In this document: positions 1-19,365 of the stretch, one piece after another
Layout: each line of letters opens with the position of its first letter
Position numbering within the stretch: the stretch's first letter is position 1
Assembly (NCBI RefSeq): GCF_003432035.1
Contig: NZ_QOHO01000066.1
Location: 1-64,000 of the forward strand
Source of the DNA: Lacrimispora amygdalina
Lineage (GTDB): Bacteria; Bacillota; Clostridia; Lachnospirales; Lachnospiraceae
Length of the DNA: 64,000 nucleotides
Direction of reading: 5' to 3'
Translations under genes and position numbers: made by a program
Notes under the pieces: generated by a model
What the model was told of the DNA's origin: nothing
Seen by the model: the letters and a program-made list of their open reading frames with translations, nothing else
Databases searched by the model: none

Positions 1-14
1 ATTGTACCGAGATA

Positions 15-65
15 CAAAAAATGAGTATTTTCGTAATGCTGCCGGTACATACGAAAATACTCATT
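15..65 (-). terminator. Rho-independent terminator of the radical SAM gene
   Basis: A perfect 16-bp inverted repeat (arms at 20-35 and 50-65) lies directly after the radical SAM stop codon. On the minus strand it is followed by a run of T residues. This closes the transcription unit that contains the small peptide and the radical SAM gene. Confidence 0.85.
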
Positions 66-71
66 CTATTT

Positions 72-1505
72 TTAGCTGAATCTTCTGCGAATGAAATCAT
101 TAACCGTTAATTTACGCATATCAAAATTCAGATTCTCTTTTGCAATAACCGAGCTGGCATACATGGCCAGTTCAGCCATACGTTTTGCCACCTGGCAGAC
201 CAGGGGATTATAGGATTCAAGAGGTTCTCCGCATTCTACCTGAACAGCCACACATGCTCCTCCGCATAAGTGCTTTGCCCAGCAATTCTTACATTCTGTA
301 CGGTTGTATACAGTTCTGTCAAAGAACATCTGCCGCTTCTCATTAAATCCATCTTCTACATGACCAATGATATAATCATTATTTCCAATAAAGCGCATGC
401 AGGGATAAATATTTCCTTTAATATCCACGCTGGCAAAACCCAGGCCGGAACCGCAGCCGTAAACTCTTCTGATTCCTTTGCTTACTGCATCTACTTCTGA
501 AACAAACGGGTAAATATTGTACTCTTCACCACTTCTGAGCTTTTCCAGGAAGGTTTCCGCCAATTCGTCATATCTTTTAAAATAATCATCTAAATCTTCC
601 TGTCTGTATGATGTTTCCTCATAGGAACCCAGTGCCGGAGTGAGGGCCACACATTTAAAATGCATGTCATCAAGCATATGATTCACAATTCTCGGTACAT
701 CCGTAACGCCCTTGGCGACTGTCGCCCTTGGAATCAGCCCGGCCGGATCCACTTCTTTTAAAAGAATTTCCACATTCTCCGCCAGCATGTCATAGGAACT
801 TTTCCCATTGGCTGCAGGCCGGTTCGCATCGTGAATCTCTTTATCCCCGTCGATGCTGATCTGCAGTCCGATGTCATGATCCTTGATCAGCTGCACCAGT
901 TCCTCATTTAGAATTGTTCCATTGGTACTGATTGTGATAAATATCTTTTTGTCATATTCTTTTTCAAGATCCTGGCACCGGTTAACAATATACTTGACAA
1001 GCGGAATATTGGTTAACGGTTCTCCGCCAAATAAGTTTAAATTAAGTACTTTTGACTGTTTGGCCTGATTTAAAAACCAGTCCAGGGTTTTGTCAGCCAT
1101 CTCCCTGCTCATAAGATCACGTTCGCCATTATAACTGCCGGTTGCTGCAAAACAATACTTACATCTTAAATTGCAGTTGTGAGAAACATTCATGACCAGA
1201 TTAATGACTTCCTTGTCCCGTTCGATTTCTATTTTTTCGTAATCCGGCTCCTCATCACAGAGGAAACCAAAGGATTCAAAATCTTCCAGTACCTTTTGAA
1301 CTTCTGCAGCCTCATATTTTTCCAGAATTTCGTCTGCAGTCGTTTTGGAATTACCAAGGTAATCCGCAACATCACAGTATATCTTTTCTACTGAATAAAA
1401 ATTGGAGTTATTCACATCCAACAGAATATTCATGCCATTATGTGAAAAATGATAGGTATCAATAAAAAACTTATCTTTTTTTACTGCCGTTAAAGTATCT
1501 CCCAT
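72..1505 (-). CDS. Radical SAM/SPASM peptide maturase with RRE-like N-terminus
   Basis: The 477-residue protein probably modifies a ribosomally made peptide. Residues about 10-90 resemble the PqqD/RRE-like region that binds leader peptides in SCIFF-type and related maturases. The radical SAM signature is at C111-C115-C118 (SHNCNLRCKYCF), followed by a GGEP motif. The C-terminal third is cysteine rich (GCGSG, YPCMRF, then CKNCWAKHLCGGAC), as in SPASM domains carrying auxiliary iron-sulfur clusters. A good site (GGCAGGAGGG) precedes the ATG. A 28-codon two-cysteine peptide starts about 190 bp upstream in the same direction and is the natural substrate candidate. The domain assignment is firm. 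The exact family (Cys-rich peptide maturase, SCIFF maturase or another) and the bond formed, perhaps a thioether, are inferred. Confidence 0.85.
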   Translation of the reverse strand: MGDTLTAVKKDKFFIDTYHFSHNGMNILLDVNNSNFYSVEKIYCDVADYLGNSKTTADEILEKYEAAEVQKVLEDFESFGFLCDEEPDYEKIEIERDKEVINLVMNVSHNCNLRCKYCFAATGSYNGERDLMSREMADKTLDWFLNQAKQSKVLNLNLFGGEPLTNIPLVKYIVNRCQDLEKEYDKKIFITISTNGTILNEELVQLIKDHDIGLQISIDGDKEIHDANRPAANGKSSYDMLAENVEILLKEVDPAGLIPRATVAKGVTDVPRIVNHMLDDMHFKCVALTPALGSYEETSYRQEDLDDYFKRYDELAETFLEKLRSGEEYNIYPFVSEVDAVSKGIRRVYGCGSGLGFASVDIKGNIYPCMRFIGNNDYIIGHVEDGFNEKRQMFFDRTVYNRTECKNCWAKHLCGGACVAVQVECGEPLESYNPLVCQVAKRMAELAMYASSVIAKENLNFDMRKLTVNDFIRRRFS

Positions 1506-1514
1506 ATTTCCCTC

Positions 1515-1550
1515 CTGCCTTTTTACAGGCAGAACGGCTGATTAGCCGCT
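1515..1550 (-). promoter_or_regulatory. Paired hairpins in the peptide/maturase spacer
   Basis: Two small stems lie between the peptide and the maturase: arms 1533-1539/1544-1550 (7 bp with one G-U, 4-nt loop) and 1515-1519/1528-1532 (5 bp). The second overlaps the maturase ribosome-binding site, so it could lower maturase translation relative to the peptide. No U-run follows, so read-through is expected. The regulatory role is inferred. Confidence 0.4.
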
Positions 1551-1609
1551 CCGCCGCCACTAAAATGACCATTGTCAAGCATGCATATCTATGTAGGAAC
1601 CTGAGTCAA

Positions 1610-1696
1610 TTAAATACATGCAACAGCACCTGAATCACAACCGCTATTAACGTTAGGATCTATGTTCTTATATTCCTCTGTGTTTACTTTTGTCAT
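1610..1696 (-). CDS. Candidate RiPP precursor peptide, two cysteines
   Basis: This 28-codon frame has a near-perfect ribosome-binding site (CAGGAGGTGAGAGCA directly before ATG), strong evidence that it is translated. The N-terminal half is polar and acidic (TEEYKNIDPN), like a leader. The C-terminus is NSGCDSGAVACI, with cysteines at 20 and 27, six residues apart. It lies directly upstream of the radical SAM/SPASM gene on the same strand. Rather than recognising a family, I infer precursor status from position, size and cysteine content. An overlapping frame encodes a much more cysteine-rich tail (CCCMYLIDSG...), so a one-base indel may have changed the original C-terminus. Confidence 0.6.
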   Translation of the reverse strand: MTKVNTEEYKNIDPNVNSGCDSGAVACI

Positions 1697-1892
1697 TGCT
1701 CTCACCTCCTGACTGGAACCCTTCAGCAGAAATACCCATTTCTGCCATGGGAATGATAATTTTTTTTTGCTTTTCAATGAGTCATTTTATTTTTACAATT
1801 AAGCACCTGACTTGTTACTTAATTGTTGATAATATGATATCAAATACCCGTCTTAATTCAACACAATGCGGATATCTCGGTATCCACAACGT
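1697..1892 (-). promoter_or_regulatory. Leader and probable promoter of the peptide-maturase unit
   Basis: This spacer separates the Lon-like gene from the peptide. It holds a 9-bp perfect inverted repeat (ACAATTAAG/CTTAATTGT, 1795-1803 and 1818-1826), a second one (TTGATA/TATCAA, 1826-1831 and 1838-1843), and a GCAGAAAT/ATTTCTGC hairpin at 1726-1745 just upstream of the ribosome site. A possible minus-strand promoter is TTGAAT (1856-1861), 16 bp, TATCAT (1834-1839). The palindromes around it could be operator sites. Only the repeats are directly seen; the promoter is tentative. Confidence 0.4.
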
Positions 1893-3179
1893 TTATTTAG
1901 ATGACCGGTCCATTTCATGCAGAATGATTCCCTCAAGCTCTTTGACATCGTCAATAAAGTCTACCGATAGCCAGTTTCTTAAATCTTCAGGAAGCAATTG
2001 GTATTCCGGCCAGGCCTGCTTAGGCAAAACAACTTTTTGAATCTCGTGTTCCTGAACAGCGCACAGTTTTTCTTTTAACCCGCCTACCCGCAGCACCCTG
2101 CCTTCTAAAGAAATTTCTCCTGAAAATGCAATTGGCTGCAGAAACCTTATGTTTCTAATGACGCAGATAACTTTTACCAAAAAAGCCAGACCGGCCGATG
2201 CACCGTCCTTATATAATTCCTGTTCATAAATATTGATGTAAAAATCATGTTTCATAAAAAAACCGGGAGGTATTTTCCAGTTTCTAAAATTTGCCTTTAA
2301 ATATGTAAATACCACCTGAACGGATTCTTTCATGAGATTTCCAATATTGCCGGAAAATCGAATATTGCCTTCTCCCTTTATGACCGCCATTTCGATTGGC
2401 AGGAGAGTTCCTCCCCATCTCGTCCATGCAATGCCAATTCCCTGAAGAGATTTTTTTCTGATCTGCTCATCAAATACATAGCAGCCGCTTCCGATCATGC
2501 GGAAAATCATCTTATTTGTAATTGTTATTTCTTTTTCCCTGTCATTACCGCCCTCATAATGGATGGTTTCATATAAATTTCTGATCAGCACGGATAGATA
2601 ATTTATCCCGGCTTCTTTTGTATAATGCTTGATGAGAATTTCTACCGAATGATCCGGCAGATAAACATTCTCTAAACTCCACTTTTTCTGGTATTGTTCA
2701 ATGAGTGTTCTTGCATAGGAAAGCTTTTCTGACACAGATAAAGAGCCATACAAAAACACACGGAAACAGGCACTCATCGCTGTATTGGTTCCAAGAATTG
2801 CCGTCGATGAAAATACAAAAATAACATTGGCTGTATTTTTCATGGAGTTAATTATTTCTATAAATTTTTCCACTTCATTTTGATAACTGCCATTGTTAAG
2901 AGGTGTATTGCCTATATAAAATAATACAAGGCTTTTATCCCTGCACATATCATGAAATGCATGATTTTCAATAAAATCTGAATAATCTACCCCTATAAAT
3001 TCCCGGTCTAAATCAATACAAATACGCCTCAGTAATTCCTTTTTTCCGATTCCTGCCGGACCGTTCATACCCAAAAAATAATTTTCTCCTCTTTCAGCCC
3101 CTAATGCATGACACAATTTTAAATACTCAAAAATCCCTTCCCCCCAGCTCATACCTGCCATGTTGTCTTCCCGTATCAT
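1893..3179 (-). CDS. Lon-type protease with degenerate AAA module
   Basis: The 428-residue protein is much shorter than full Lon (about 770-800) and lacks the N-terminal substrate-binding domain. Residues 35-230 look like an AAA module with a Walker A variant (GPAGIGKK, 40-47: K in place of the usual T/S). The expected Walker B position reads LVLFYIGN with no acidic pair, so ATP hydrolysis may be lost. From about 246 (GIAWTRWGGTLLPIE) the sequence is a clear Lon proteolytic domain with both dyad residues: Ser328 in KDGASAG and Lys371 in GGLKEKL. It is therefore probably an active peptidase. It follows the GNAT gene by 22 bp and precedes the peptide/maturase unit. A role in leader removal is possible but is only positional inference. 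Confidence 0.8.
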   Translation of the reverse strand: MIREDNMAGMSWGEGIFEYLKLCHALGAERGENYFLGMNGPAGIGKKELLRRICIDLDREFIGVDYSDFIENHAFHDMCRDKSLVLFYIGNTPLNNGSYQNEVEKFIEIINSMKNTANVIFVFSSTAILGTNTAMSACFRVFLYGSLSVSEKLSYARTLIEQYQKKWSLENVYLPDHSVEILIKHYTKEAGINYLSVLIRNLYETIHYEGGNDREKEITITNKMIFRMIGSGCYVFDEQIRKKSLQGIGIAWTRWGGTLLPIEMAVIKGEGNIRFSGNIGNLMKESVQVVFTYLKANFRNWKIPPGFFMKHDFYINIYEQELYKDGASAGLAFLVKVICVIRNIRFLQPIAFSGEISLEGRVLRVGGLKEKLCAVQEHEIQKVVLPKQAWPEYQLLPEDLRNWLSVDFIDDVKELEGIILHEMDRSSK

Positions 3180-3201
3180 AATTTAATCCACTCCATAAGC
3201 A

Positions 3202-3675
3202 TTATTCCTTTAATATCATCTGAACCGGTGTATAATTTATCTCTCGGAATCCGATTTCTTTACTTACCGGAAGACCTTTTTTTGTCACTTCCATATTGAG
3301 CAGTTCGATCCCCTTCTTCTTTGCGTATTCTGCAGACATTTTTAACAGAGAGCCTGCCAGCCCCATTTTCCGAAATTCAGGCTTTGTATACCCGTTAATG
3401 GGAACTCCCGCAGTCCCTTTTAAAAAATCGGGGTGGGGAAGGCGGAAATAATAAGCCGTAAAGCTGGTTGATATGATTTCTCCGTTGTACTCTGCTACAA
3501 AAGCATCCATATCTTCATTTAGGTGGGTATGGAAAAAAGCCGTCAGCTCCTGTTCTAAATTACGGGCCTGATACACTGCTTCTTCTCCTAAATCCTCAAT
3601 TAAATAAGCAATACGCATGGAAACAAGCTGTTTAATATCTGACATTTCTGCTTTTCTAAATAGAACATCCATCAT
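3202..3675 (-). CDS. GNAT family N-acetyltransferase
   Basis: The 157-residue protein has the GNAT pattern: an N-terminal FRKAEMSDI strand, a central beta region (AEYNGEIISTSF), the acetyl-CoA loop region (YTKPEFRKMGLAGSLL) and a C-terminal KEIGFREI motif typical of the last strands. The start overlaps the iorB stop by 4 bp (ATGA), so it is translationally coupled to the oxidoreductase genes. The acceptor substrate cannot be deduced. Confidence 0.85.
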   Translation of the reverse strand: MMDVLFRKAEMSDIKQLVSMRIAYLIEDLGEEAVYQARNLEQELTAFFHTHLNEDMDAFVAEYNGEIISTSFTAYYFRLPHPDFLKGTAGVPINGYTKPEFRKMGLAGSLLKMSAEYAKKKGIELLNMEVTKKGLPVSKEIGFREINYTPVQMILKE

Positions 3676-4235
3676 GTTATTCTCTTTCCTTTCCTGGAAA
3701 GCTCTGCCCCAAGCGCCAGAGCTTCCAGCATTTTTTTCCGGATCTCGCCGGAGTACCGCTTTATCAGTATTTTCTCTATATCTTTCTCAGAAATAAGATG
3801 TCTGCCGCCGGAAAAAACAATCCCCAGCATAATAATATTGGTATTCCTCTTAATCCCGTTTTTCTTCCACTGGTTTTCCAGATCATAACAATTAAGACTA
3901 ATATCAGATCTGATCCTGTTCTCAGACAGAAGAGCCGCTCTTTCAGAATCATCTGGCGCCTGTGCTATCCCTGAACCCTTTAAATATCTCTGATTACGCA
4001 CAGCTTCGGCCAGATCCATGGAGATTACTTCGTCTGCCTTCCCAACAGGAATAAACGGACTGTGGATTTGTTCTCCAATCCGCACGTGGCTCATTACGCT
4101 CCCGCCTCTTTGTGCCATCCCTATGGTTTCCGCACTCCGCACTTCCAGCCCTTTTTCCATAGCTGTTTCCAGAATCAGCCTTGAACATGTGATGACTCCC
4201 TGCCCACCGGTGCCTGCTATGATAAATTCATTCAT
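3672..4235 (-). CDS. iorB: Indolepyruvate ferredoxin oxidoreductase, beta subunit
   Basis: The 187-residue gamma-type domain of 2-oxoacid:ferredoxin oxidoreductases carries the start motif FIIAGTGGQGVITCSRLI and AETIGMAQRGGSVMSHVRIG. With IorA it oxidatively decarboxylates arylpyruvates from aromatic amino acids to aryl-acetyl-CoA, reducing ferredoxin in the cytoplasm. Its start overlaps the end of iorA by 8 bp, the normal two-gene arrangement. Length is normal for the family. Confidence 0.93.
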   Translation of the reverse strand: MNEFIIAGTGGQGVITCSRLILETAMEKGLEVRSAETIGMAQRGGSVMSHVRIGEQIHSPFIPVGKADEVISMDLAEAVRNQRYLKGSGIAQAPDDSERAALLSENRIRSDISLNCYDLENQWKKNGIKRNTNIIMLGIVFSGGRHLISEKDIEKILIKRYSGEIRKKMLEALALGAELSRKGKRIT

Positions 4236-6036
4236 ATCTTCCTCCTATCTGCAGGATAGCCTGCCGTTTACACACCATGGTGCACAGGCCGCAGCCATTA
4301 CAGTCCGTTTCATCAATTTGTATAAGCCCATTGTTTAAGGTCATTGCCGGACAGCCTATTTCCTTAATACAAATTCCGCATCCATTGCAAATGGATTCTT
4401 CTATCTTTACCTGTTTTTTTACAGTCTCCTTCTTTTTACAGGGCGCCCGGAATATAATTGCCTTAATTCCGTCTAAGACCGCCGTTTTTCTTACAATTTC
4501 TATACCTTCATTCAGAGCATAAGGAGATATTATGGAAATTTCAGAGACGCCGAGTCCAGCCAGAACCTGTTCTATTTTTACAACCTGGGGAGACTGGCAG
4601 GAAACCGAGCCTGTTTCCGGCGTGGGTTGTCCGCCGGTCATGGCAGTAGAACGATTATCCAGGATAATTATGGTCAATTTCCCATTGTTATAAATTCCAT
4701 TTAAAACCCCCTGTAATCCTGAATGAAAAAATGTGGAATCACCAATAAATGAAAAAACCGTATCGTCTGGATTGGCTTTTTGTATTCCGAGACCAATTGT
4801 AATCCCTGCCCCCATGCATAAACAGGTATCCACCATGTTAAGCGGCTCTGATTTCCCCAGTGTGTAACATCCAATATCACCGCAGAATACTGCCCTCTGG
4901 TCTTTCATTGCCTGCTTGACTGTATAAAAGGCCGCTCTGTGAGGACAGCCTGCACACAAAACTGCCTTCTTTCCTGCAGCAGGTTCCCGGGCATCAGGGT
5001 GGTTTTCAACAAGTTTTGGAATTTCAAATACTCTCTGTAAAAGAAGAATGATCTCATCAACCGTATTTTCTCCTGCTGTCTTAATATCTCCGGACATTTT
5101 TCCATAGATTACGGGAGCCGTTAATCCTGTTTTTCCATACAAATAGTATATCTGACGTTCTATCACTGCATCCAGTTCTTCAATCACAACGATTCTGTCT
5201 ATTTTGTCCAACAGAGAAATAATTCCGGATTCCGGCAGGGGAATGGTTGCTGCCTGCAGGAAAATATATTGGTCTTCCTGCAAATTCAGAAATTGGACTG
5301 CCTCTTTTACATAAGCACAGTTGACACCGGAAGCAAGAATAAGGGTGCTCCCCGTCCCATACTGCCTGCTGTACGGAAGAGATTCAAATTCTTTCATCAG
5401 ATCAGCAAATCTTTTTTCCACTTTCAGGTGATTCAAATAGGACAGAGCAGGAAAGCATACCCATTTATTATCTTTTTCAAAACCTTTTTTCACTGGTACC
5501 AGGGGAATTTTATTTCTGCTTACTCCGGCATAACTATGGCATACCCTGGTGGTGGGCCGTAAAATGACCGGTGTACTGTATTTTTCTGAGATTTCAATAG
5601 CCATTTGTGTCATCGTATATGCTTCTTCCGGCGAAGATGGATCAAATAGCGGAAGCTTTGAATAAAGGGCAAAGTTTCTTGTATCCTGCTCTGTTTGGGA
5701 AGAAACAGGACCAGGATCATCTGCAACTACGATCACCAGCGCCCCCCTGACACCTATGTAAGACAAATTCATAGCAGGATCGGAACAGGCATTCAGACCT
5801 ACCTGCTTCATGGCAACAATACACCGGCAGCCGGAATATGCCGCCCCTGCTGCTGCTTCCAGAGCCACCTTTTCATTCACTGACCATTCAACATAAATAT
5901 CATCCGTTTTATTTTTAAAAACAGTTTCAACCACTTCAGTTGCCGGAGTCCCGGGATATCCGCTGACAAATGTAACTCCGGCATCAATTGCTGCCAAAGC
6001 GATTGCGTGGTTTCCCATCATAAGTTCCTTTTGCAT
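4228..6036 (-). CDS. iorA: Indolepyruvate ferredoxin oxidoreductase, alpha subunit
   Basis: The 602-residue thiamine-diphosphate enzyme has the usual IorA plan. An N-terminal pyrimidine-binding domain (AAGAAYSGCRCIVAMKQVGLN) and a middle domain precede a TPP/Mg-binding domain (GDIGCYTLG...SFIGDSTFFHSGLQGVLN). Two C-terminal 4Fe-4S motifs (CNGCGICIKEIGCP and CNGCGLCTMVCK) complete it. It works with IorB in aromatic amino acid fermentation, generating reduced ferredoxin. A clear ribosome site (GGAGGAAAGG) precedes the ATG. The upstream 134 bp must hold the promoter, but no convincing hexamer pair was found. Confidence 0.95.
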   Translation of the reverse strand: MQKELMMGNHAIALAAIDAGVTFVSGYPGTPATEVVETVFKNKTDDIYVEWSVNEKVALEAAAGAAYSGCRCIVAMKQVGLNACSDPAMNLSYIGVRGALVIVVADDPGPVSSQTEQDTRNFALYSKLPLFDPSSPEEAYTMTQMAIEISEKYSTPVILRPTTRVCHSYAGVSRNKIPLVPVKKGFEKDNKWVCFPALSYLNHLKVEKRFADLMKEFESLPYSRQYGTGSTLILASGVNCAYVKEAVQFLNLQEDQYIFLQAATIPLPESGIISLLDKIDRIVVIEELDAVIERQIYYLYGKTGLTAPVIYGKMSGDIKTAGENTVDEIILLLQRVFEIPKLVENHPDAREPAAGKKAVLCAGCPHRAAFYTVKQAMKDQRAVFCGDIGCYTLGKSEPLNMVDTCLCMGAGITIGLGIQKANPDDTVFSFIGDSTFFHSGLQGVLNGIYNNGKLTIIILDNRSTAMTGGQPTPETGSVSCQSPQVVKIEQVLAGLGVSEISIISPYALNEGIEIVRKTAVLDGIKAIIFRAPCKKKETVKKQVKIEESICNGCGICIKEIGCPAMTLNNGLIQIDETDCNGCGLCTMVCKRQAILQIGGRYE

Positions 6037-6170
6037 GCCTGTACCTTTCCTCCATTTTTATTGACTTCCCAGACCGATATATTCTAAAATACAACACCCC
6101 ATTATCCTTTACCACTTTTAGTGAATAACTAGGTGTTCAAACCGTTTATTTGTCATTCTGTTACAAAGTC

Positions 6171-7004
6171 TTATCTTACTGAAAAATAAAGAAAAACCAG
6201 AATACCAAGGATTATGCGGTACCAGCCAAATACTTTAAAATCGTGTTTCTTTATATAACTCATCAGTAATTTTATAACCAGTAATGAAACGGCAAACGCG
6301 ACCGCCATGCCGGACACCAGAATAAAGAGTTCCTCCCCTGTAAATGACAGGCCAAATTTCAATATTTTTATGGCACTTAAACCAAACATTACAGGTACTG
6401 CCATGAAAAATGTAAATTCAGCCGCAGTTGTGCGGGAAATTCCAACGAGCAGCGCACCGATTATGGTTGCACCGGAACGTGAAGTGCCGGGAATAATGGA
6501 AAGCACCTGAAATAACCCAATGATAAATGCGGTCCTGTAATTAATATCTGCTATTTTTGTTACGGCAGGTATGCGTTTTTTATTCCAGTTTTCAATCAGT
6601 ATAAAGGCCGCTCCATAAAAAATCAGGGCTGCTGCGATAACACCGGGAGTCTGAAACCGGGCATCGATATAATCATCGAAAAGGATTGTTACAATTGCTC
6701 CCGGCACACATGCAATCACTACTTTTATCCAGATAAGAAACGTTTCTTTTATAAGAAAAGGCCTGTTTTTATCACTCCACTGGAAAGGAAACATCTTATT
6801 CCAAAACAAAATCACTACAGCGAAAATTGCTCCCAGCTGAATTATAACAAAAAACATTTCCTTGAAGCTCTCACTGGCATTGATCTGTAAAAACTGATCC
6901 ACAAGGAGCATATGGCCGGTACTGCTGATCGGCAGCCATTCCGTAATTCCTTCCACAATTCCTAAAAAAACAACCTTTAAAAATTCTGCTAAAATTGAAG
7001 CCAT
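6171..7004 (-). CDS. uppP: Undecaprenyl-diphosphatase (BacA type)
   Basis: This 277-residue polytopic membrane protein dephosphorylates undecaprenyl diphosphate to recycle the cell-wall lipid carrier; overexpression of the family gives bacitracin resistance. The family signatures are intact: GIVEGITEWLPISSTGHMLL near the N-terminus and PGTSRSGATIIGALLVGISR in the second conserved repeat. AGGAGGAATTATTAG precedes the ATG. Length is standard. Confidence 0.95.
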   Translation of the reverse strand: MASILAEFLKVVFLGIVEGITEWLPISSTGHMLLVDQFLQINASESFKEMFFVIIQLGAIFAVVILFWNKMFPFQWSDKNRPFLIKETFLIWIKVVIACVPGAIVTILFDDYIDARFQTPGVIAAALIFYGAAFILIENWNKKRIPAVTKIADINYRTAFIIGLFQVLSIIPGTSRSGATIIGALLVGISRTTAAEFTFFMAVPVMFGLSAIKILKFGLSFTGEELFILVSGMAVAFAVSLLVIKLLMSYIKKHDFKVFGWYRIILGILVFLYFSVR

Positions 7005-7089
7005 CTAATAATTCCTCCTGCTTTTATATTTTTTATTTCTTTCTTATAATCCTCTATTATGCACAAATATGCAAGACACCTGCCGTAAC

Positions 7090-7129
7090 AAAGAAAAAAA
7101 GCCCGTGACACGAATGGTGTCATGGGCTT
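7090..7129 (-). terminator. Rho-independent terminator of the chemoreceptor gene
   Basis: A GC-rich stem (arms 7099-7111 and about 7117-7129, 4-5-nt loop, one mismatch) is followed on the minus strand by seven T residues. It lies 33 bp after the chemoreceptor stop codon. Confidence 0.9.
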
Positions 7130-7161
7130 AAAACCACACTTTAACGGCTTTTTTGATCTTT

Positions 7162-9123
7162 TTATTTGTTCTCCTTTGCCAACTCAAATTTGGAAACCAG
7201 ATTTGTCATAATTAAGGACTGTCCGGACAACTCCTGGGCATACGCGGCACTTTCCTCTGCAGTGGCAGCATTGGACTGTACCACTCCGGAAACCTGCTCT
7301 ATGCCGATCTTTAATTGGGAAACTGCATCGGACTGTTCTGAGGAACTGCCTGATATCTCATTTATTAATACGGAAACCTCCTGTGTACTCTTTACAATCT
7401 GTTCCAGGGAATGTGAAGTTTCTAAGGCAATATCATTTCCATTTTTCACGGCCTCAATGGATTTTTCAATCAGAGCCGCCGTATCCCTGGCTGCATCTGC
7501 ACTTTTTCCTGCCAGATTCCGCACTTCATCTGCCACTACTGCAAATCCTTTTCCGGCCTCGCCCACTCTGGCAGCCTCCACAGCTGCATTCAGAGCAAGA
7601 ATATTGGTCTGAAAAGCAATATCTTCCACAACTTTAATGATTTTTCCGATTTCGGTTGAAGTTTCACTGATCTCATTCATTGCCTTCACCAGTTTTTCCA
7701 TCTCCTGCTGCCCGCTGCTCACCTGATTCACTGCCTGCAGGGACATTGCTCCGGCTTTTTCAGCATTTGCGGCATTGGAACTGATGTGATGGGAGATATC
7801 AGAGATGGTAGCCGCTATTTCTTCAACAGAACTGGCCTGCCTTGTGGCTCCCTGCGATAACTGCTGGGATGATTCCGCCACCTGCTCTGAACTGCTGTTT
7901 ACTTCTCTGGCGGAAACTATGATTTCTCTGAATGCCCTATTTAACTGATCCGTGATCTGGTTTAACGATGTCTGTATTTCAATAAATTCACCTTTGTATT
8001 CCACATCAGACTGCACGTTTAGGTTGCCGGCAGAAACCTGCTGTAAAATATAGGCTATTTCCTTAATATAGGATTTAAGGGAACTTATCATATCAGCAAT
8101 ACTTCTTGTTAAAATGCCGATTTCATCCTTACTGTTATGTATATGAACTTCACTTTCCAGATCTCCGTTTGCCAGAAGTTCCATCCGTCCGGTTATTTTC
8201 TTTATGGGGTTTGACAAACTGTTGGCCAGGGTAACGCTTGCGATTATGCCGATTATAATTAAAATGCCGGATGAAACCAGCAGCAGGATAATGGTATAAA
8301 TGATAGAAGCGGTCATTTCCTTAACAGGTGCTACCACTCCATAGGACCAGCCGTCGGAATTGCTCACCGGACCATATGCACAGATTCTGGCTCCTGTCTC
8401 ATATTCATACCGGTCTACTCCCTTTTCCCCTTTTATCATTTTATTATAGACTTTTGATGCATTTACCAGGGAAGGATCTGTTTTTGCCTTTTCTATAAAA
8501 TTTTGTCTTTCCTCAACCAGATTTGGACGTTTATTGGCAACGAAGGTACCTGTGCTGTCCAGCATAAATACGTTGCCCGTCTTTCCAATTACAATATTTT
8601 CAATAATCCTGCTGAAATAAAGACTGTCTAAAACACCGATTACCACACCGGAACCAGAGGGCAAGGGGGAACATACGTAAAATACCATCTGATTGTCCAA
8701 CGCTTCCGTAGAGGAAATAGTGGTTTTCCCATTTAAACTGTCTGTGAAAAAACGTTTTGCTGAAAAATCCTGTCCATCCAGAGTTTTATCCGTACTGGAT
8801 AACTTCCCATCCGGACCGGCAACCGCAAACGTTTTAAACTTTGTATTTTTTAACGCTGAATCCATGGAATTAAGCTTTTTATTCAAATCACCCGACTTCA
8901 CTTCACCCAGCTGACTGGCAAGACTTTGTGCCTGTTCTTTTAACAGGCTGATCTCTGCCGCCAATGCAGTATCTGCAATTTCTCCCATTGCATTCATGTC
9001 ACTTTTCGTATTTTCCGTTATGCTGTAATAACTGGCACTGATTCCTGTAATTACATTGACGGCTGAGGTTACAAATAACAAAAGAAAAATAACAAAAAAC
9101 AGTTTACCTTTAATCGTCTTCAT
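7162..9123 (-). CDS. Methyl-accepting chemotaxis protein (dCache-HAMP-MCP)
   Basis: The 653-residue receptor has a signal-anchor helix (about 8-30), an extracellular dCache-like sensing region (about 35-280, including [20 protein letters not shown]) and a second membrane helix near 290-315. A HAMP domain follows, then a long coiled-coil signalling domain with the hallmark [28 protein letters not shown] split around the CheW/CheA-binding tip. It would pass ligand information to CheA; the ligand is unknown. No che genes are nearby, so it is an orphan receptor. A strong promoter and a terminator indicate a monocistronic unit. Confidence 0.93.
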
Positions 9124-9164
9124 ATGCAGATATCCCCTTGTCGTAATCTTTGAATATAATAAAT

Positions 9165-9193
9165 ATTATACATTGGAATCAGTAATTTTACAA
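9165..9193 (-). promoter_or_regulatory. Sigma-A type promoter of the chemoreceptor gene
   Basis: On the minus strand TTGTAA (9188-9193) and TATAAT (9165-9170) are separated by exactly 17 bp. This is about 40 bp upstream of the chemoreceptor ATG. No sigma-28-like pattern was recognised. Confidence 0.75.
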
Positions 9194-9227
9194 ATATTTA
9201 TTTCAAAATTCGACTAAATTTTACAAA

Positions 9228-10424
9228 TTATTCCACGATCAGACTGAGCACGTCCCGCCTCATGGAATTTGGGGCTGATGTCTCCGGTTCTCCTATTCGC
9301 AGCAGCATCTGTATGGTCTGGCCCTGGCCTGCGTAATCGTATCTGAAATCATCATATGGCTGTTTCATCTCCGGATATTCTTCCAGCACCTGACTCAACG
9401 GCTGCATGGCAAGACCAAGGGTATGTCCGGTAAGAATCATCCTGCTGTAAAGCATACCGCTTAGCACCTGGTCTGTCCGGCTGTTACCGCTTGTGGTTAT
9501 GACAGCATAGGCGGGTGTATGGTCAACGGCTGTTTTGGTATAATGAATAAAGTTTTGGGATGCACCCTTTCCTTCATTTATTGAAGGAAACAAGGTGATT
9601 AATCCCTGCAGCAGATACCGTCTGATACCGGAAGCTCCCTGTCCTTCAACGGAATACCCCCAACGGTATTTGTTCTTCTCTCTTTCATTTGCACGGAATA
9701 TTCCATTGGATTCGTCCATAACCCTGGTTACTCCGGCCTCGGTCTTTGCGCTTTCCATGACATAGTTCCCAATTTTATACAGATCAGCTTTTCCTGTATA
9801 GAATTTTATAGACAGCCCGTTCTCATCCGGCAGTTTGGTAAGCTTTGAAATCTGTAAAGAATCAGGGGCTTTCTTCTTATAATTTCCCCGGTTTGTATCT
9901 GCCAGAAACATCCCGTTATAAAAAGGACTTTCTTCCGGCTTAGCGGGTGAAAGTGTGATCTTTGCAACCGGTTTTTTATCCATGCTGCTTAAAAGATCTC
10001 CTTCCTCATACTCACCCTCTGGAAAAACCGCGATATCCGCATGAAATCCTTCTTTTTCTCCTGCAACTCTGACATATTCTAAAAACGTTCCCTGAGTGAT
10101 CATCATCTGCCGGTAAAGGGGATCCACCTCTTTTGTGGTCCTTAAGCTGTCTGCATATAAGTAAAATACCATGGGATCAGCTTTATCCAGCTTCACTTTC
10201 CACGGCTGCATATTATGGTTGTTTGCAGCAAGGAGTCCGGCGGCTGCCAGCCGAATTCGTGGATCTGTATACTTTGCTGCATAATTTTTATCCCATGGTT
10301 CTAAATAAGACTGCTTCATAAATCCTCCGCCAAGAATGAATAATCCAAACATAATCAATAAGATCAAACCGGCAGCGCTTTTAAAGATCTTAAAAAGATT
10401 TTTCCTGCCTGTCCTGGTTTTCAT
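9228..10424 (-). CDS. Membrane-anchored Acg-like nitroreductase-fold protein
   Basis: The 398-residue protein begins with a basic stretch and a hydrophobic helix (about 14-34, SAAGLILLIMFGLFILGGG), so it should be anchored with the body outside or at the membrane. The body resembles the Acg subfamily of the nitroreductase/FMN fold: AAAGLLAANNHNMQPWKV near 60-77, VDPLYRQMMITQGTFLEY, and a C-terminal RIGEPETSAPNSMRRDV. The substrate is unknown; Acg-type proteins are thought to bind or sequester flavin. The start overlaps the TetR stop by 4 bp, so the pair is one operon. Confidence 0.75.
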   Translation of the reverse strand: MKTRTGRKNLFKIFKSAAGLILLIMFGLFILGGGFMKQSYLEPWDKNYAAKYTDPRIRLAAAGLLAANNHNMQPWKVKLDKADPMVFYLYADSLRTTKEVDPLYRQMMITQGTFLEYVRVAGEKEGFHADIAVFPEGEYEEGDLLSSMDKKPVAKITLSPAKPEESPFYNGMFLADTNRGNYKKKAPDSLQISKLTKLPDENGLSIKFYTGKADLYKIGNYVMESAKTEAGVTRVMDESNGIFRANEREKNKYRWGYSVEGQGASGIRRYLLQGLITLFPSINEGKGASQNFIHYTKTAVDHTPAYAVITTSGNSRTDQVLSGMLYSRMILTGHTLGLAMQPLSQVLEEYPEMKQPYDDFRYDYAGQGQTIQMLLRIGEPETSAPNSMRRDVLSLIVE

Positions 10425-11083
10425 ACCCCACGCTCCTTTCCGGTAACAAGCCGGAGTAAAAGCTTAAAGCACTCTTCTAAGAATTCCTCCACGGTAATAT
10501 GGTGATAATTCTCCAGATAATCCTTTTTCCTGCGGCCTGCATGAAAGGCTCCTATGGTAAATGACCATAAAATCAATGCGGTTTTCTCACAGTCCATATC
10601 ACTTTTAAGGCTTCCGTCATTCTTTCCTTTTCTTAACGCTTCAGTAAGATAAAAAAGAACTTCTTCACCCAGACGGTAACACTCTTCTCTGGAATCCCCG
10701 CTGACTCCCTCCTGATTGCCTTCATCCTTTGTCTCATACTCCATAATTGCCTTAAAGTAGTCTTCATATTTTTCACGGAAGGAAAATAAGGTGTAAAAAA
10801 TACAGCGAAGCTCTTCCAGTGCACTTGCTGGTTTTTCTTTTTCAAACCCTTCTTCCAGCATCTTGAGAAGCTTTCTGTAACCTCTGATCATAATTTCAAA
10901 ATAGATCTGTTCTTTGCTGTTAAAATACACATAAACAGTTCGTTTGCTGAATTCCGCTTTCTTTGCAACGGCATCCATGGAGGAATTCTCATAACCGTTT
11001 GCAAAGAAAACTTTCTCAGCTGCATCAATGATATCCTTTCTCTTAATTTCTTTCTCCAGTCGCTTTCGTTCTTCTGCTCCCAA
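10421..11083 (-). CDS. TetR family transcriptional regulator (TTG start)
   Basis: The N-terminal helix-turn-helix (IIDAAEKVFFANGYENSSMDAVAKKAEFSKRTVYVYF, about 20-55) is classic TetR; the C-terminal helical domain should bind a ligand. I choose the TTG at 11083 because a perfect AGGAGG lies 8 bp upstream. A longer frame starting at 11116 has no ribosome site and would begin inside the operator region. A promoter and a palindromic operator lie just upstream, so autorepression and control of the downstream nitroreductase-like gene are likely. Confidence 0.85.
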   Translation of the reverse strand: MGAEERKRLEKEIKRKDIIDAAEKVFFANGYENSSMDAVAKKAEFSKRTVYVYFNSKEQIYFEIMIRGYRKLLKMLEEGFEKEKPASALEELRCIFYTLFSFREKYEDYFKAIMEYETKDEGNQEGVSGDSREECYRLGEEVLFYLTEALRKGKNDGSLKSDMDCEKTALILWSFTIGAFHAGRRKKDYLENYHHITVEEFLEECFKLLLRLVTGKERGV

Positions 11084-11117
11084 TTGCTGTTCCTCCTGTA
11101 ATTCCGTTATTTGCAAA

Positions 11118-11136
11118 AGTAAACTTGCAGTTTACT
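11118..11136 (-). promoter_or_regulatory. Probable TetR operator
   Basis: A perfect inverted repeat, AGTAAACT-TGC-AGTTTACT, overlaps the expected transcription start of the TetR operon. A further half site (AGTTTAC) lies at 11149-11155, inside the promoter spacer. Position and symmetry fit autorepression by the TetR protein. Confidence 0.7.
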
Positions 11137-11138
11137 TA

Positions 11139-11167
11139 ATACTATAACAGTTTACAGATTATGTCAA
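11139..11167 (-). promoter_or_regulatory. Promoter of the TetR-nitroreductase operon
   Basis: The minus strand carries TTGACA (11162-11167), a 17-bp spacer and TAGTAT (11139-11144). The -35 box sits at the very end of thiD, so thiD and the TetR operon are separately transcribed although on the same strand. Confidence 0.75.
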
Positions 11168-11941
11168 TCCCCACATATGATTTAACGGGCCGCTGCCCTT
11201 ACCGATATTTAACTGGTCATTTAAAGCTCCTGTAATATACGCTTTGGCATTCTTTACGCTCTGTTCCAGGGAACAGCCATTTGCAAGGCTGCAGGCAATG
11301 GCAGAAGACAGGGTGCATCCGGTCCCATGCGTATTGGGATTGTCAATACGTCTGCCTGTTATCCATATCATTTTTTCTTCTGTATACAAAAGATCATCGG
11401 AACTCTCTGTTAAATGGCCGCCTTTTATCAGGACTGCACAGTTCAGCTTTTGAAAAATTGCCTCCGCAGCTTTTTCCATGTCGCGTTTGCTGCCGATTTT
11501 CATATTCCAAAGTGCCTCCGCTTCCGGAATATTCGGTGTGACAAGAAGGGCCATAGGCAGCAGTTTCGTAACAAGCACATCCATTGCCTTTTCAGAAAGC
11601 AGTTTCGAGCCGCTGGTTGATACCATAACAGGATCAACTACCAGATTTTTCACGTTGTATTCTGTTAACTTTCCCACAATCGTCTCTATAATCCCGCTGT
11701 TTGAAACCATTCCGATTTTCACCGCATCCGGAATAATATCTGTAAAAATACAATCCATCTGCTGTCCTGCAAATTCAGGTGTCACATCCATAATTGATGT
11801 AACACCTGTGGTATTCTGGGCGGTCAGCGCCGTTATTACACTCATTCCATATACCTTGTGGGCAGTCATTGTCTTTAAATCTGCCTGAATACCGGCGCCG
11901 CCGCTGCAGTCGGAGCCCGCAATTGTCAAAACCTTTTTCAT
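11159..11941 (-). CDS. thiD: Hydroxymethylpyrimidine/phosphomethylpyrimidine kinase
   Basis: This 260-residue ribokinase-fold enzyme phosphorylates HMP and HMP-phosphate to HMP-PP for thiamine synthesis. Diagnostic motifs are TIAGSDCSGGAGIQADLKT at the start, DPVMVSTSG in the middle and the anion-hole motif NTHGTGCTLSSAIA near 215-230. It overlaps thiE by 4 bp and is the last gene of the riboswitch-controlled thiM-thiE-thiD operon. Confidence 0.95.
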   Translation of the reverse strand: MKKVLTIAGSDCSGGAGIQADLKTMTAHKVYGMSVITALTAQNTTGVTSIMDVTPEFAGQQMDCIFTDIIPDAVKIGMVSNSGIIETIVGKLTEYNVKNLVVDPVMVSTSGSKLLSEKAMDVLVTKLLPMALLVTPNIPEAEALWNMKIGSKRDMEKAAEAIFQKLNCAVLIKGGHLTESSDDLLYTEEKMIWITGRRIDNPNTHGTGCTLSSAIACSLANGCSLEQSVKNAKAYITGALNDQLNIGKGSGPLNHMWGLT

Positions 11942-12576
11942 AAAACCACCTCCTTTGCCAGCGATAAAAGGGACTTCACTGCCCTTTTCTTATCCCGGGC
12001 GGCAAATACTGCGGAAATCACGGCTACTCCGTCAATATTACTCCCTTTCAGCTTTACGATATTATCCTCATTAATTCCTCCTATGGCAATTACCGGAATG
12101 GATACAGAGCTGCAGATTTCTTTCAGAGTCTCAAAGGAAACAGGTCTGGCATCGGTTTTCGTAGAAGTTTCAAAGACTGCTCCAACCCCGATATAATCTG
12201 CACCGTTTTTTTCAGCCAGAAGTGCCTGTTCTTTTGTCTGGGCGGATACTCCAAGTATCTTGTCCTCTCCGATCAGTTCCCTGCATTTTTTTGCCTCTAA
12301 GTCCTTCTGTCCTACATGAACCCCGTCTGCTCCCACAGCCAGGGCAACTTTTATATTGTCATTGATCACAAAGGGGATTTTATACTTTGATGTAATTCTT
12401 CTAATCTCCTTGCCTTCGGCTACAAAGCTGTCAAAATCAAGATTTTTTTCCCTCAGCTGGATAAAGGTTGCTCCTGATTCCAGGATTTCCTCCACCTGCT
12501 CATGAAGCCTGCCGCTGCCAAGCCACGTCCGGTCAGTGACCACATACAAAAGCATGTTTTCTTTAGATACATTCAT
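11938..12576 (-). CDS. thiE: Thiamine-phosphate synthase
   Basis: ThiE joins HMP-PP and THZ-P to give thiamine phosphate. The 212-residue product has the TIM-barrel signatures LREKNLDF, FVINDNIKVALAVGADGVHVGQ, GADYIGVGAVFETSTK and IPVIAIGGI. The ATG at 12576 has an upstream GAAGAAGGTG site and gives the normal family length; an in-frame start at 12606 would add ten unsupported residues. It overlaps the thiM end by 14 bp. Confidence 0.93.
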   Translation of the reverse strand: MNVSKENMLLYVVTDRTWLGSGRLHEQVEEILESGATFIQLREKNLDFDSFVAEGKEIRRITSKYKIPFVINDNIKVALAVGADGVHVGQKDLEAKKCRELIGEDKILGVSAQTKEQALLAEKNGADYIGVGAVFETSTKTDARPVSFETLKEICSSVSIPVIAIGGINEDNIVKLKGSNIDGVAVISAVFAARDKKRAVKSLLSLAKEVVL

Positions 12577-13387
12577 ACTTTGCACCTTCTTCCAGCATTT
12601 TTTCATCCAGTCTGCTCATTTCATCAATCAAAAGCATACGGTATGTACCGGTGCCTCCATGAAGTTCACACAGTCTTTTATATGCCAGTTCCCCGCATAC
12701 TCCCATCCCGCATACGGCTGCTGCAGATGCGTGAAATATATCACCGGGATTGGCACCAACAAAGCTTCCGGCAACAGCAGAAAGCATACAGCCCGTCCCA
12801 GTGATTTTACTCATCATGGAATGGCCGTTTCTGATTGCAAACACATGGTCCTTATCCGCCACCAGATCAATGGCACCGGTAATCACAATGACGGAACCGG
12901 TTTTTTTTGAAAACGCTTTTGCAAAGTCTGCCACGCTTTTTAAATTGTCCTCTGTCACTTTATCCGCTTCACAGGCATCTACTCCCGAGGTTCTCCCTTC
13001 TCCTGCAGCCAGAAATTTAATTTCAGATATATTACCTTTAATCACGGAAAACGTTATCTCTTCCAAAAGCTGAAATGCTGTTTTATTCCGATATGCTGAT
13101 GCCCCGGCTCCCACAGGATCCAAAACAACAGGCAGGCCGCATTTATTTGCTGTTTTTCCTGCTGCAGTCATGGACGCAGCCGTCCTCTCATTAAGAGTTC
13201 CCATATTGAGCACCAGAGCGGAGGAAATAGCAGTGATGTCACGGACCTCATTGATGTCATCCGCCATAATCGGCGATCCTCCGCTAGCCAGTATGATGTT
13301 GGCGCAGTCATTTACAGTCACATAGTTTGTGATTGCATGAACCAGTGGCACATTGTTTCTTACATTTGTAATGATTTGTTCAAACAT
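12563..13387 (-). CDS. thiM: Hydroxyethylthiazole kinase
   Basis: ThiM phosphorylates hydroxyethylthiazole in thiamine salvage. The 274-residue product has PLVHAITNYVTVNDCANIIL, ASGGSPIMADD, LDPVGAGAS and the conserved cysteine in ITGTGCMLSAVAGSF. The ATG at 13387 follows AAGGAGTAAG and sits after the riboswitch terminator. An upstream in-frame start (13495) lies inside the riboswitch and is not used. It is the first gene of thiMED, a salvage set for HMP and thiazole rather than a full de novo pathway. Confidence 0.95.
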   Translation of the reverse strand: MFEQIITNVRNNVPLVHAITNYVTVNDCANIILASGGSPIMADDINEVRDITAISSALVLNMGTLNERTAASMTAAGKTANKCGLPVVLDPVGAGASAYRNKTAFQLLEEITFSVIKGNISEIKFLAAGEGRTSGVDACEADKVTEDNLKSVADFAKAFSKKTGSVIVITGAIDLVADKDHVFAIRNGHSMMSKITGTGCMLSAVAGSFVGANPGDIFHASAAAVCGMGVCGELAYKRLCELHGGTGTYRMLLIDEMSRLDEKMLEEGAKYECI

Positions 13388-13415
13388 TTTCTTACTCCTT
13401 TTCCTGGTTTTGAGG

Positions 13416-13452
13416 GAAAAAAATGAGATATGCCAAGAAAGACATATCTCAT
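13416..13452 (-). terminator. Riboswitch expression-platform terminator
   Basis: Arms ATGAGATATG and CATATCTCAT (13423-13432 and 13443-13452) form a 10-bp stem that runs into a T-rich tract on the minus strand, between the TPP aptamer and thiM. It would stop transcription when TPP is bound. Confidence 0.88.
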
Positions 13453-13465
13453 GATATTCAGTAAG

Positions 13466-13559
13466 AGTGGCTGTCCCTACGTTGGCATTACCCAAATCAG
13501 GTTAAACGGGTCGAAGTTCTTAACTTCCTCTCAGCCGGGTCACCAGCTCCCCAAAACTA
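13466..13559 (-). promoter_or_regulatory. TPP riboswitch (THI element)
   Basis: The minus strand carries the conserved TPP aptamer blocks in order: GGGGAGC, GGCTGAGAGG, then GACCCGTTTAACCTGATTTG, GGGTAATGCCAACGTAGGGA. Followed by a terminator and thiM, it predicts repression of thiMED by thiamine pyrophosphate. Confidence 0.96.
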
Positions 13560-13599
13560 TATTGATTTTTCTCGATTTTAACACAGCAGACATCCGAAG

Positions 13600-16206: not shown

Positions 16207-16397
16207 ACCATCACCTCTATCATATGTATTCTGATTCATACCATTTATCTGTCAAACCATTCCAGTATTCTTTCAAATATTTTAATTATATTATCGTCAG
16301 GTTGTCAAGCTGAATTAAAGTTGCCTGTCATAAAAATTTATGATTCATTGAAACAGAACGGGATTACCGCCGGCTGCTCAGACTATAATATAGAGTA

Positions 16398-16440
16398 ACC
16401 AAAAATACCGAATGCAAATGCTGCATCCGGTATTTTTGGT
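16398..16440 (-). terminator. Terminator after the ferredoxin-type aldo/keto reductase
   Basis: A long inverted repeat (ACCAAAAATACCG against CGGTATTTTTGGT, with inner ATGCA/TGCAT pairing) abuts the stop codon of the reductase. The T-rich part lies within the descending arm, so the fold could work in both directions. Confidence 0.7.
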
Positions 16441-17609
16441 CATTTATCAAGTCTCATCACTTTTTTAATCAGGAACCGCAAGGGTTTATAGGTAATCCCT
16501 TCCATGGATTTTGCTACCTGCGTCATTTCCTCGCTGATCTTAATATGCTGGGGGCAATGGGATTCACACTTCCTGCATTTTACACAAAGAGATGCATTGC
16601 GTGGTTCCTTCTTAATGCTGGTCTGCATGATATATTTGCCTCTGGAAGCTAATTTCCCCTCTATCTCCATGTCATTATAACAGGAAAAGCAGGTTGGGAT
16701 GTCCACTCCCATAGGACATGGCATACAGTAATTGCAGCCGGTGCAGGGGACTTTAATTGTCTGATCAAGAATATCCTTAACCTGTTTAAACAGGTTAAAA
16801 TCAGCATCTGTAAAGGCGTTTACCTCAGTTTCTGATGCTACCCGGATGTTTTCCTTTAACATCTCCATGGAATTCATTCCCGACAGCACAACCGTAACTT
16901 CCGGCTGGTTCCACAGCCATTTAAATGCCCACTCTGCCGGTGACCGCTTCACAGGAGCGTTGTTCCAGACAGACTCCACCTCTTTTGGCAGATTCGTCAC
17001 CAGCTTTCCGCCTCTTAAAGGTTCCATAACCATTACCGGGAGCCCCTTGCCGGAAGCATATCGGATTCCTTCTATGCCGGCCTGTCTGTGCTCATCTAAA
17101 TAATTATACTGAAGCAGACAGAATTCCCATGGGTAGATGTCCACCAGCCGGATAAATTCATCCCTGCCGCCGTGATAGGAAAAGCCGATATTAAGTATCT
17201 GTCCCTTTTTTTTCTTTTCCCCGATCCATTCATTTACACCCAGCTTTATTAACCGGTCCCATACTTTGGTATCCGGCAGCATATGGATTAAATAATAATC
17301 AATGTAATCCGTTTTAAGCCTCTCTAACTGGGTTAGAAAAACCTTGTCAAAATCTTCGTATTTTTTAATGGTGTGGGGAGGCATTTTGGAGGCAATTTTC
17401 ACACGTTCCCGGTATCCGTTTGAAAGTACTCTTCCTAAGACAGCTTCGCTGTTGGGATAAATATAAGCGGTGTCAAAATAATTGACTCCATGCTCGATTG
17501 CATAAATGATCTGCTTCTCCACCTCCTTTTCATCCCGGCTGAATCTCATGCAGCCAAAGCCCAGTGCCGAAAGTTCGTCCTGATTTTTGGGATTAATCCG
17601 ATACTTCAT
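16440..17609 (-). CDS. Aldo/keto reductase with C-terminal 4Fe-4S domain
   Basis: The 389-residue protein has an N-terminal AKR barrel: GFGCMRFS, then DTAYIYPNSEAVLG with the catalytic Tyr, ASKMPP, and YYLIHMLPD. The C-terminal ferredoxin-like part (about 285-360) has CTGCNYCMPCPMGVDIPTC and CVKCRKCESHCPQHI. Clostridial and archaeal members of this group probably couple NAD(P)H or ferredoxin to carbonyl reduction; the substrate is unknown. It is the last gene in the ribose-type transporter cluster and is bounded by a terminator. Confidence 0.9.
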   Translation of the reverse strand: MKYRINPKNQDELSALGFGCMRFSRDEKEVEKQIIYAIEHGVNYFDTAYIYPNSEAVLGRVLSNGYRERVKIASKMPPHTIKKYEDFDKVFLTQLERLKTDYIDYYLIHMLPDTKVWDRLIKLGVNEWIGEKKKKGQILNIGFSYHGGRDEFIRLVDIYPWEFCLLQYNYLDEHRQAGIEGIRYASGKGLPVMVMEPLRGGKLVTNLPKEVESVWNNAPVKRSPAEWAFKWLWNQPEVTVVLSGMNSMEMLKENIRVASETEVNAFTDADFNLFKQVKDILDQTIKVPCTGCNYCMPCPMGVDIPTCFSCYNDMEIEGKLASRGKYIMQTSIKKEPRNASLCVKCRKCESHCPQHIKISEEMTQVAKSMEGITYKPLRFLIKKVMRLDK

Positions 17610-17682
17610 TTATTTATCCTCCTTTTCTCGGGTTCTATCCCCATTATACTCGTTTTTCAGGACATGGCAATGGAAGAATCTT

Positions 17683-18117
17683 TTATTTTACCACTCCCTT
17701 TTTCAGGATAATATTGGCGTATAGTTCACTTTCGCCTGTCATAATGACAACAGAGGAGTGATTTTTTGTCCGGTCGTAGAAATCCCACTTATCGATTTCT
17801 TCAAAACAGGCAGCTCCCCTCTCATCATGCTTTGCTACAATTTCCTTATATTTGTCCCAGATCGGAGTCTTTACGTCATCTCCCGGAACCACTCCCATCA
17901 AGGTGACCGGGTGTTCCACATAGGTATCAAGGGGAAACAGCTGTAAGATCGCATCCAGTATTTCCGGCACTCCGTGTCCATCCATACGGATCACTTTTTT
18001 GCCGTAAGTATGGCCCGGAAAATTCCCGTCTCCGATGGTAAGCTCATCGGTATGGCCCATTTCACATAAAATCTTTAATAACTCGGGACTGATAATGGAA
18101 GGTATTCCTTTTAACAT
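17683..18117 (-). CDS. RbsD/FucU family sugar mutarotase
   Basis: The 144-residue protein has the family's short conserved segments: the N-terminal ISPELLKILCEMGHTDELTIGDGNFP with the key His and Asp, and HPVTLMGVVPGDD. The family interconverts anomers of ribose or fucose to feed the kinase or isomerase. The sequence looks closer to FucU than RbsD, but the sugar is uncertain. It directly follows the transporter's binding protein, so it handles the transported sugar. Confidence 0.88.
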   Translation of the reverse strand: MLKGIPSIISPELLKILCEMGHTDELTIGDGNFPGHTYGKKVIRMDGHGVPEILDAILQLFPLDTYVEHPVTLMGVVPGDDVKTPIWDKYKEIVAKHDERGAACFEEIDKWDFYDRTKNHSSVVIMTGESELYANIILKKGVVK

Positions 18118-18141
18118 AATATTTTTCTCCTTTTCTCAAAG

Positions 18142-18168
18142 AGCGCTCTCCTTTCAAAGGAGAGCGCT
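18142..18168 (-). other. Intra-operon hairpin after the binding-protein gene
   Basis: A 27-nt perfect palindrome with a single central base (AGCGCTCTCC ... GGAGAGCGCT) lies between the binding-protein stop and the mutarotase start. No U-run follows. Such stems often protect the upstream binding-protein mRNA from 3' decay and reduce downstream expression; that role is inferred here. Confidence 0.6.
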
Positions 18169-18174
18169 GCATAA

Positions 18175-19311: not shown

Positions 19312-19365
19312 TTAATTGCTTCCTCCTGATTTTATTTATGTAATTTCTTACGAATTACACTGCGC

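Follow-up and report, generated by a model that had tools for sequence, protein, structure and literature searches.

A 28-codon gene and the radical SAM/SPASM gene that follows it, at the start of the 64,000-nucleotide stretch of Lacrimispora amygdalina DNA analysed here (the window), quite probably form a minimal RiPP biosynthesis unit in which the 28-residue product would be the thioether-crosslinked substrate of the enzyme; we infer its chemistry, regulation, processing and function. Judged from the sequences, we read the pair as a new family of precursor and maturase that stands next to the ranthipeptides and is akin to the SCIFF family without belonging to it. Beyond what the first-pass annotation of this DNA had noted, there is a divergent kinship of the enzyme with SCIFF maturases, a larger island of genes shared with a second genome of the genus (G315), and a conserved operator-like inverted repeat.

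The precursor peptide gene (28 aa, MTKVNTEEYKNIDPNVNSGCDSGAVACI) lies at 1610..1696 on the minus strand, with the ATG at 1696 and the stop codon ending at 1610, and is delimited by the open reading frame and its conservation in G315; the maturase gene is at 72..1505, also on the minus strand. This confirms the arrangement originally noticed, a two-cysteine 28-codon frame with a strong ribosome-binding site ahead of a SPASM radical SAM gene. Pairwise comparison with the one ortholog shows identity at 28/28 residues, and the two genes differ at 10 of 87 bases: nine differences lie within codons, all of them synonymous, and the tenth changes the stop codon from TAA to TAG. Under neutrality, a random change would be synonymous in 24% of cases, and nine out of nine would arise with P ~2e-6 (transitions weighted double; one genome pair). 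Given that the peptide is letter-identical and all in-codon changes are synonymous, the frame is very probably a real gene under coding selection, even though the peptide identity may partly reflect short divergence, since the pair is known in two genomes of a single genus (the enzymes differ by 18%). A chance ORF is ruled out by the same two observations. The 28-mer matches no NCBIfam or Pfam model, in keeping with the initial impression that it belongs to no nameable family. Its leader, first described as acidic, is so but weakly (E7, E8 and D13 versus K3 and K10). One of the two cysteines is part of N17-S-G-C20, which has the NxxC spacing and is present in both genomes; Cys27 has no NxxC-type neighbour.

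The maturase (477 aa) contains the CX3CX2C motif at residues 111, 115 and 118 and SPASM cysteines at 351, 369, 405, 408, 414, 418 and 437; Pfam detects the radical SAM domain, and the SPASM match stays below the gathering score. The triad and six of the SPASM cysteines are the same in all of 17 aligned sequences, which include both window-type enzymes (L057 and L077, with stop codons in the match ranges, and L045, L051, L069, L080 and L082 were left out), and C437 is nearly invariant because one row ends before it; all ten Fe-S cysteines are invariant in a separate alignment of 14 sequences. In the predicted model of the enzyme (pLDDT 79.6, pTM 0.82, built with 14 sequences), residues 17-79 (1269..1457, minus strand) form three strands followed by three helices, the RRE layout, and align to the N-terminal part of CteB. 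A fold search started with this model identifies CteB, a SCIFF maturase, as the best solved match (5wgg, E 1.7e-31, 456 columns, TM 0.79 by query), and a sequence search of solved structures also points to the 5wgg entry. The enzyme thus combines an RRE-like domain, seen in the predicted model, with intact radical SAM and SPASM cluster ligands, as expected of a RiPP maturase, and the earlier reading of an RRE-like plus SPASM radical SAM enzyme beside a short peptide finds support in the sequence, the predicted structure and the retention of both genes in G315. Because the window begins at base 1 of its contig (C139), the enzyme is at the contig edge and the sequence past it in this genome is outside view.

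Family profiles place the enzyme near the SCIFF maturases. With TIGR03974, the SCIFF-maturase model (cut-off 425), it obtains 301 bits, compared with 304 for the G315 ortholog and 787 for the ScfB of the window genome; other scores are 276 for the PapB model NF047865 (cut-off 340), 275 for a Nif11-type model (cut-off 518.7) and 258 for QhpD (cut-off 453), and it is under the curated cut-off for the best 25 of the 82 NCBIfam families matched. Its best relatives are SCIFF maturases, 28-36% identical. In a tree of 34 of the 93 enzyme rows (rows aligned over <330 residues, e.g., L082, were excluded beforehand), the window and G315 enzymes stand beside, and outside, a 100/100 clade of 28 SCIFF-maturase rows; their join has support of 94/86 on a long branch, at a point where the program warns that long branches meet. 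Scores below the listed cut-offs and the long branch imply that the chemistry may differ from that of the relatives. Both by the TIGR03974 cut-off and by the ScfB clade, the enzyme falls outside the SCIFF maturases, and the 28-mer, with its two cysteines and no NCBIfam match, is no SCIFF ranthipeptide, that is, a peptide with the SCIFF motif and six cysteines in about 45 residues. Assignment to the PapB ranthipeptides fails as well, given the sub-threshold score and a 28-mer that is free of CX3D, which we take to be the PapA precursor motif. The enzyme as simply a second ScfB is rejected on the score, on its position outside the clade and on the presence of a separate SCIFF-ScfB locus in the window genome.

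Among the SCIFF loci used for comparison, the SCIFF gene is on the strand of the enzyme in 29/29 fetched loci (L008-L036) and upstream of it in 47 of 59 loci from a wider contig scan, two Cys-poor variants included; ten of the 12 others begin at or near a contig end, and L082 and L086 do not. Two variations of the precursor were observed: in L056, L058, L065 and L088, SCIFF precursors are doubled head to tail in a single frame of 86-89 residues upstream of the maturase, and in L071 and L080, SCIFF-like precursors upstream of a retained maturase have lost central cysteines (CQTASKVDNTVSNQ instead of CQSACKTSCTVANQ). The L071 and L080 enzymes group together in the tree (100/100).

The pair has a narrow known distribution. 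The enzyme is found at E 1e-78 in 2 of 25 genomes of the genus, that of the window included, the other being G315 (82% identical), and the peptide at E 1 in the same two; the remaining 23 have neither. The first-pass annotation held that the lack of a conserved short peptide beside orthologous enzymes would count against a RiPP locus; on checking, the peptide gene is conserved beside the maturase in both known loci, the window and the one ortholog. At E 1e-79, an order-wide draw yields matches in at least 5 of 392 genomes besides that of the window, 33-36% identical and each with a SCIFF gene in the locus. Apart from the window genome itself, no match appears at this threshold among 391 genomes of the class or 398 of the phylum (these draws overlap); in the family, order, class and phylum draws at most 4 or 5 first-look candidates were scored per genome, so that a miss is possible, and the family draw of 299 genomes takes one genome per genus, so that species within genera are not counted. 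A wider contig scan with exact peptide patterns gave no match, a weak result as the G315 ortholog itself would fail those patterns (by eye). When 148 fetched loci were scanned for the motif, the two genomes remained the only source of a peptide of this type. Frame matches in L047 and L066 in the motif scan look like chance. Viral contigs contain four distant radical SAM loci (25-26% identity), and nothing closer, when searched with the two-enzyme alignment, and no match (0) to a DNA pattern for the peptide end; plasmids yield 565 records with the enzyme query, none at 60% identity or above, and no match with the peptide query.

The unit carries a promoter-like site, an operator-like repeat and a terminator of its own. 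All these signals are on the minus strand. The ribosome-binding site AGGAGGTG (1703..1710) is 6 bases from the ATG, with GGAGGTGAG retained in G315. A consensus scan matches the promoter-like sequence TTGAAT-16-TATCAT, with TG ahead of the second hexamer (1834..1861), in a region largely conserved in G315. Just downstream of it, ahead of the peptide gene, is the operator-like inverted repeat ACAATTAAG-N14-CTTAATTGT (1795..1826), the arms of which are exact in both genomes; a count by eye gives 6 shared bases among the 14 of the spacer. Further exact copies are absent from the 64 kb of the window, 36 kb of G315 and 8.3 kb of contig C123 of the window genome; a weaker pair with three mismatches occurs at 51674 of the window, the chance level at <=3 mismatches being 0.35 pairs per 20 kb (20 resamplings of window bases 1-20000; all orientations, spacers 10-17). 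The 104-base gap between the peptide and enzyme genes contains a hairpin (1528..1555) that appears in the centroid fold in the window (z -2.2; the minimum-energy fold pairs otherwise) and in both the minimum-energy and the centroid fold in G315 (z -3.9), and may be a processing or attenuation element. The strong terminator reported earlier at the end of the unit is borne out as an intrinsic terminator at 20..65, with a 16-bp perfect inverted repeat (20-35/50-65; folding z -4.9) and a matching hairpin 3' of the ortholog in G315 (z -4.7).

Two papers describe ranthipeptide maturases as enzymes that join Cys to a beta or gamma carbon, the partners of Cys being Thr in CteA, Asp in freyrasin and the Asn three residues earlier in NxxcA (PMC8326336; PMC13361665). 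By comparison, residues 1 to about 16 of the 28-mer would act as the leader, docking on the fused RRE of the enzyme, and the C-terminal NSGCDSGAVACI would be the core. The radical SAM cluster would generate a 5'-deoxyadenosyl radical to remove a hydrogen from the side chain of the acceptor residue, and the Cys thiolate, held near a SPASM auxiliary cluster, would then close the thioether, each ring lowering the mass by 2 Da. The most probable ring would link Cys20 to the beta carbon of Asn17, in the NxxC geometry; NxxC is a short motif, able to occur by chance, and N17-S-G-C20 fits it in both genomes. Cys27 might form a second ring, e.g., to Asp21. From the N17-S-G-C20 spacing, a Cys27 without such a neighbour and Asp21 as a candidate acceptor, one or two thioether rings are to be expected, and a small thioether peptide is, from the sequences, the most likely product of the pair. 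With just two cysteines in the 28-mer, few rings are possible; one 28-residue substrate and one enzyme make a compact test case for the choice of acceptor residue by SCIFF-like maturases. No exporter-type gene is seen, by eye and in family scans, in the first 7 kb of the window (1-7 kb) or at 3686-3710 kb of G315.

Genomic context extends the analysis to an island shared by the two genomes. Next to the pair, on the minus strand, the window encodes a Lon-like protease with a short AAA part and an S16 domain (1893..3179; PF05362, PDB Lon alignments), a candidate processing protease; a GNAT acyltransferase (3202..3675; PF00583); and, from NCBIfam family searches, an IorB-like 2-oxoacid ferredoxin oxidoreductase subunit (3672..4235) and a divergent copy of the IorA-like subunit (4228..6036). 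The iorA, iorB and GNAT genes precede the pair in both genomes, and the Lon-like gene is between GNAT and the peptide gene in the window and ~10 kb from the pair in G315. Among the 25 genus genomes, the Lon-like protein has a close copy (66%) only in G315, the others being 28-31% identical and mostly in Lon-sized frames; the GNAT is found at E 1e-25 in two, those of the window and G315; and for IorA the single close copy is that of G315 (73%), identity falling to 37-40% for the remaining matches at E 1e-100, of which the window genome contains one. In G315, the pair is preceded by genes for a chorismatase, a U32-like protein and a double GNAT, and followed by those for a GHKL kinase, a LytTR-type response regulator, a DUF6070-type protein and a DAHP synthase; the order of genes in the island differs between the two genomes. 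On the far side, the island seems to end at iorA in the window: ten genes between 6171 and 21856 belong to ordinary families or none, and, past 6.1 kb, an ABC ATPase alone resembles anything in the G315 stretch. A BlaI/BlaR1-like regulator pair (L108:4432-6662; G315 3690431-3692661) is divergent from the Lon-like gene in G315 (by eye). The words Lon, ranthipeptide, U32 and sactipeptide do not appear, as whole words, in PMC10885120, a review of leader proteases.

Counterparts of the other half of the island are on C123 (8.3 kb), which encodes homologs of the response regulator, DUF6070 protein, DAHP synthase, chorismatase, double GNAT and U32-like protein, as well as AgrB and a 417-residue protein of no Pfam family; analogy with the gene order of G315 suggests that C123 adjoins C139. 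The locus L127:6-1493 on this contig comprises agrB, a subsequent AgrD-like frame of 54 residues (core SFCILTIHQPEIP), so named from what we take to be the shape of the AgrD motif, and the LytTR response regulator; no kinase gene is seen on C123, and a GHKL kinase is present in the G315 counterpart. Since the pair would belong to an island with agr-type quorum-sensing genes, cell-density control is plausible. The FkbO/Hyg5-type chorismatase (L127:4926-5921) scores 236 bits with the FkbO/Hyg5 model (cut-off 325), has 5ag3 and 5a3k, followed by FkbO, as its best solved relatives, and is found in 1 of 299 family genomes, that of the window itself (G315 is outside that draw). The U32-like protein has a 71% identical copy in G315, 26-45% identical relatives in 10 further genus genomes, and a second copy in the window genome. 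Elsewhere in the genus, such proteins lie beside very long multi-domain frames, probably NRPS (L141:13870-15105; L144:8084-9319), or beside other enzyme genes (L142, L143; all by eye), which fits a role in specialised metabolism; those near probable NRPS frames are possibly a class of tailoring enzyme. A second RiPP locus was observed on contig C144 of the window genome (L141:1622-5320), encoding an ABC transporter, a radical SAM enzyme similar to RumMC (466 bits, where the cut-off is 720) and a 65-residue precursor that reaches 106 bits (cut-off 45) with the model of Apre_1838, a putative sactipeptide family.

What connects this island with the peptide is that the genes lie together and occur together in two genomes. 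A hybrid pathway, in which the GNAT acylates the cross-linked peptide with a shikimate-derived or arylacetyl-CoA unit supplied through DAHP synthase, chorismatase and IorAB, is suggested by the conserved position of iorA-iorB-GNAT ahead of the pair, by GNAT, IorA, Lon-like and U32-like proteins that have close copies in just these 2 of 25 genus genomes, and by chorismatase and DAHP synthase homologs both in the same G315 region and on C123; it is nevertheless unlikely, given that no acid-CoA ligase is seen, that the pair has a separate promoter-like site, that gene order differs between the genomes, that GNATs have many other roles, and that the second half of the island is on another contig in the window genome and placed nearby only by analogy with G315. 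An unlikely extension is a quorum-sensing-controlled pathway of this kind, in which the radical-SAM cross-linked 28-mer would carry a chorismate-derived acyl group or be its partner, so that RiPP and shikimate chemistry meet in one cluster. Open-access literature, as far as the listed matches and the accessible portions of the sources extend, contains no radical-SAM peptide beside agr-type genes and chorismate diversion, the setting in which this island places one; with its small-molecule and agr-type genes, the island makes the pair more than one further orphan.

PqqA and MftA are short precursors worked on by maturases, and the 28-mer could by analogy be the scaffold of a redox cofactor or small molecule, modified by a C-C bond or C-terminal decarboxylation, with the Lon-like protease excising the product. 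The very short precursor, identical in both genomes, the lack of an observed exporter beside the pair, the small-molecule enzymes of the island and a Lon-like protein whose close copies are restricted to these two genomes of the genus are compatible with such a role, but the closest enzymes are of thioether-forming types, PqqE comes at rank 45 in the fold search, the C-terminal core has no Tyr or Trp and the Lon-like gene is distant from the pair in G315, which makes it decidedly unlikely. The short frame might instead encode a regulatory leader, or a small protein that stays unmodified, with the enzyme acting elsewhere, e.g., on the SCIFF peptide encoded with its own ScfB in the window genome; this is highly improbable, as the SCIFF locus has its own high-scoring maturase and peptide and enzyme are either both present or both missing in each of the 25 genus genomes at the thresholds given.

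The thioether-forming pair, the preferred reading, can be compared with three known systems. PapA/PapB and QhpC/QhpD resemble it in that the PapB and QhpD models are among the five best family matches of the enzyme, but both scores are below cut-off, the 28-mer lacks CX3D and the substrate is not a dehydrogenase subunit. The NxxC ranthipeptides of streptococci (NxxcA/NxxcB) are similar, by motif alone, in the Asn-X-X-Cys of the core, a known beta-thioether pair, whereas the window peptide has a second Cys at position 27 and agr-type genes nearby instead of Rgg. Compared with the SCIFF/ScfB systems (ranthipeptides of the CteA/CteB type), the peptide differs in its size, cysteine content and motif, and the enzyme in its restriction to two of the 25 genus genomes, matches at E 1e-60 being present in 252 of 299 genomes across the family; these systems are nonetheless the best sequence and structure match of the enzyme, and share with it the fused RRE, the radical SAM domain, the seven-Cys SPASM layout and a precursor gene located just upstream.
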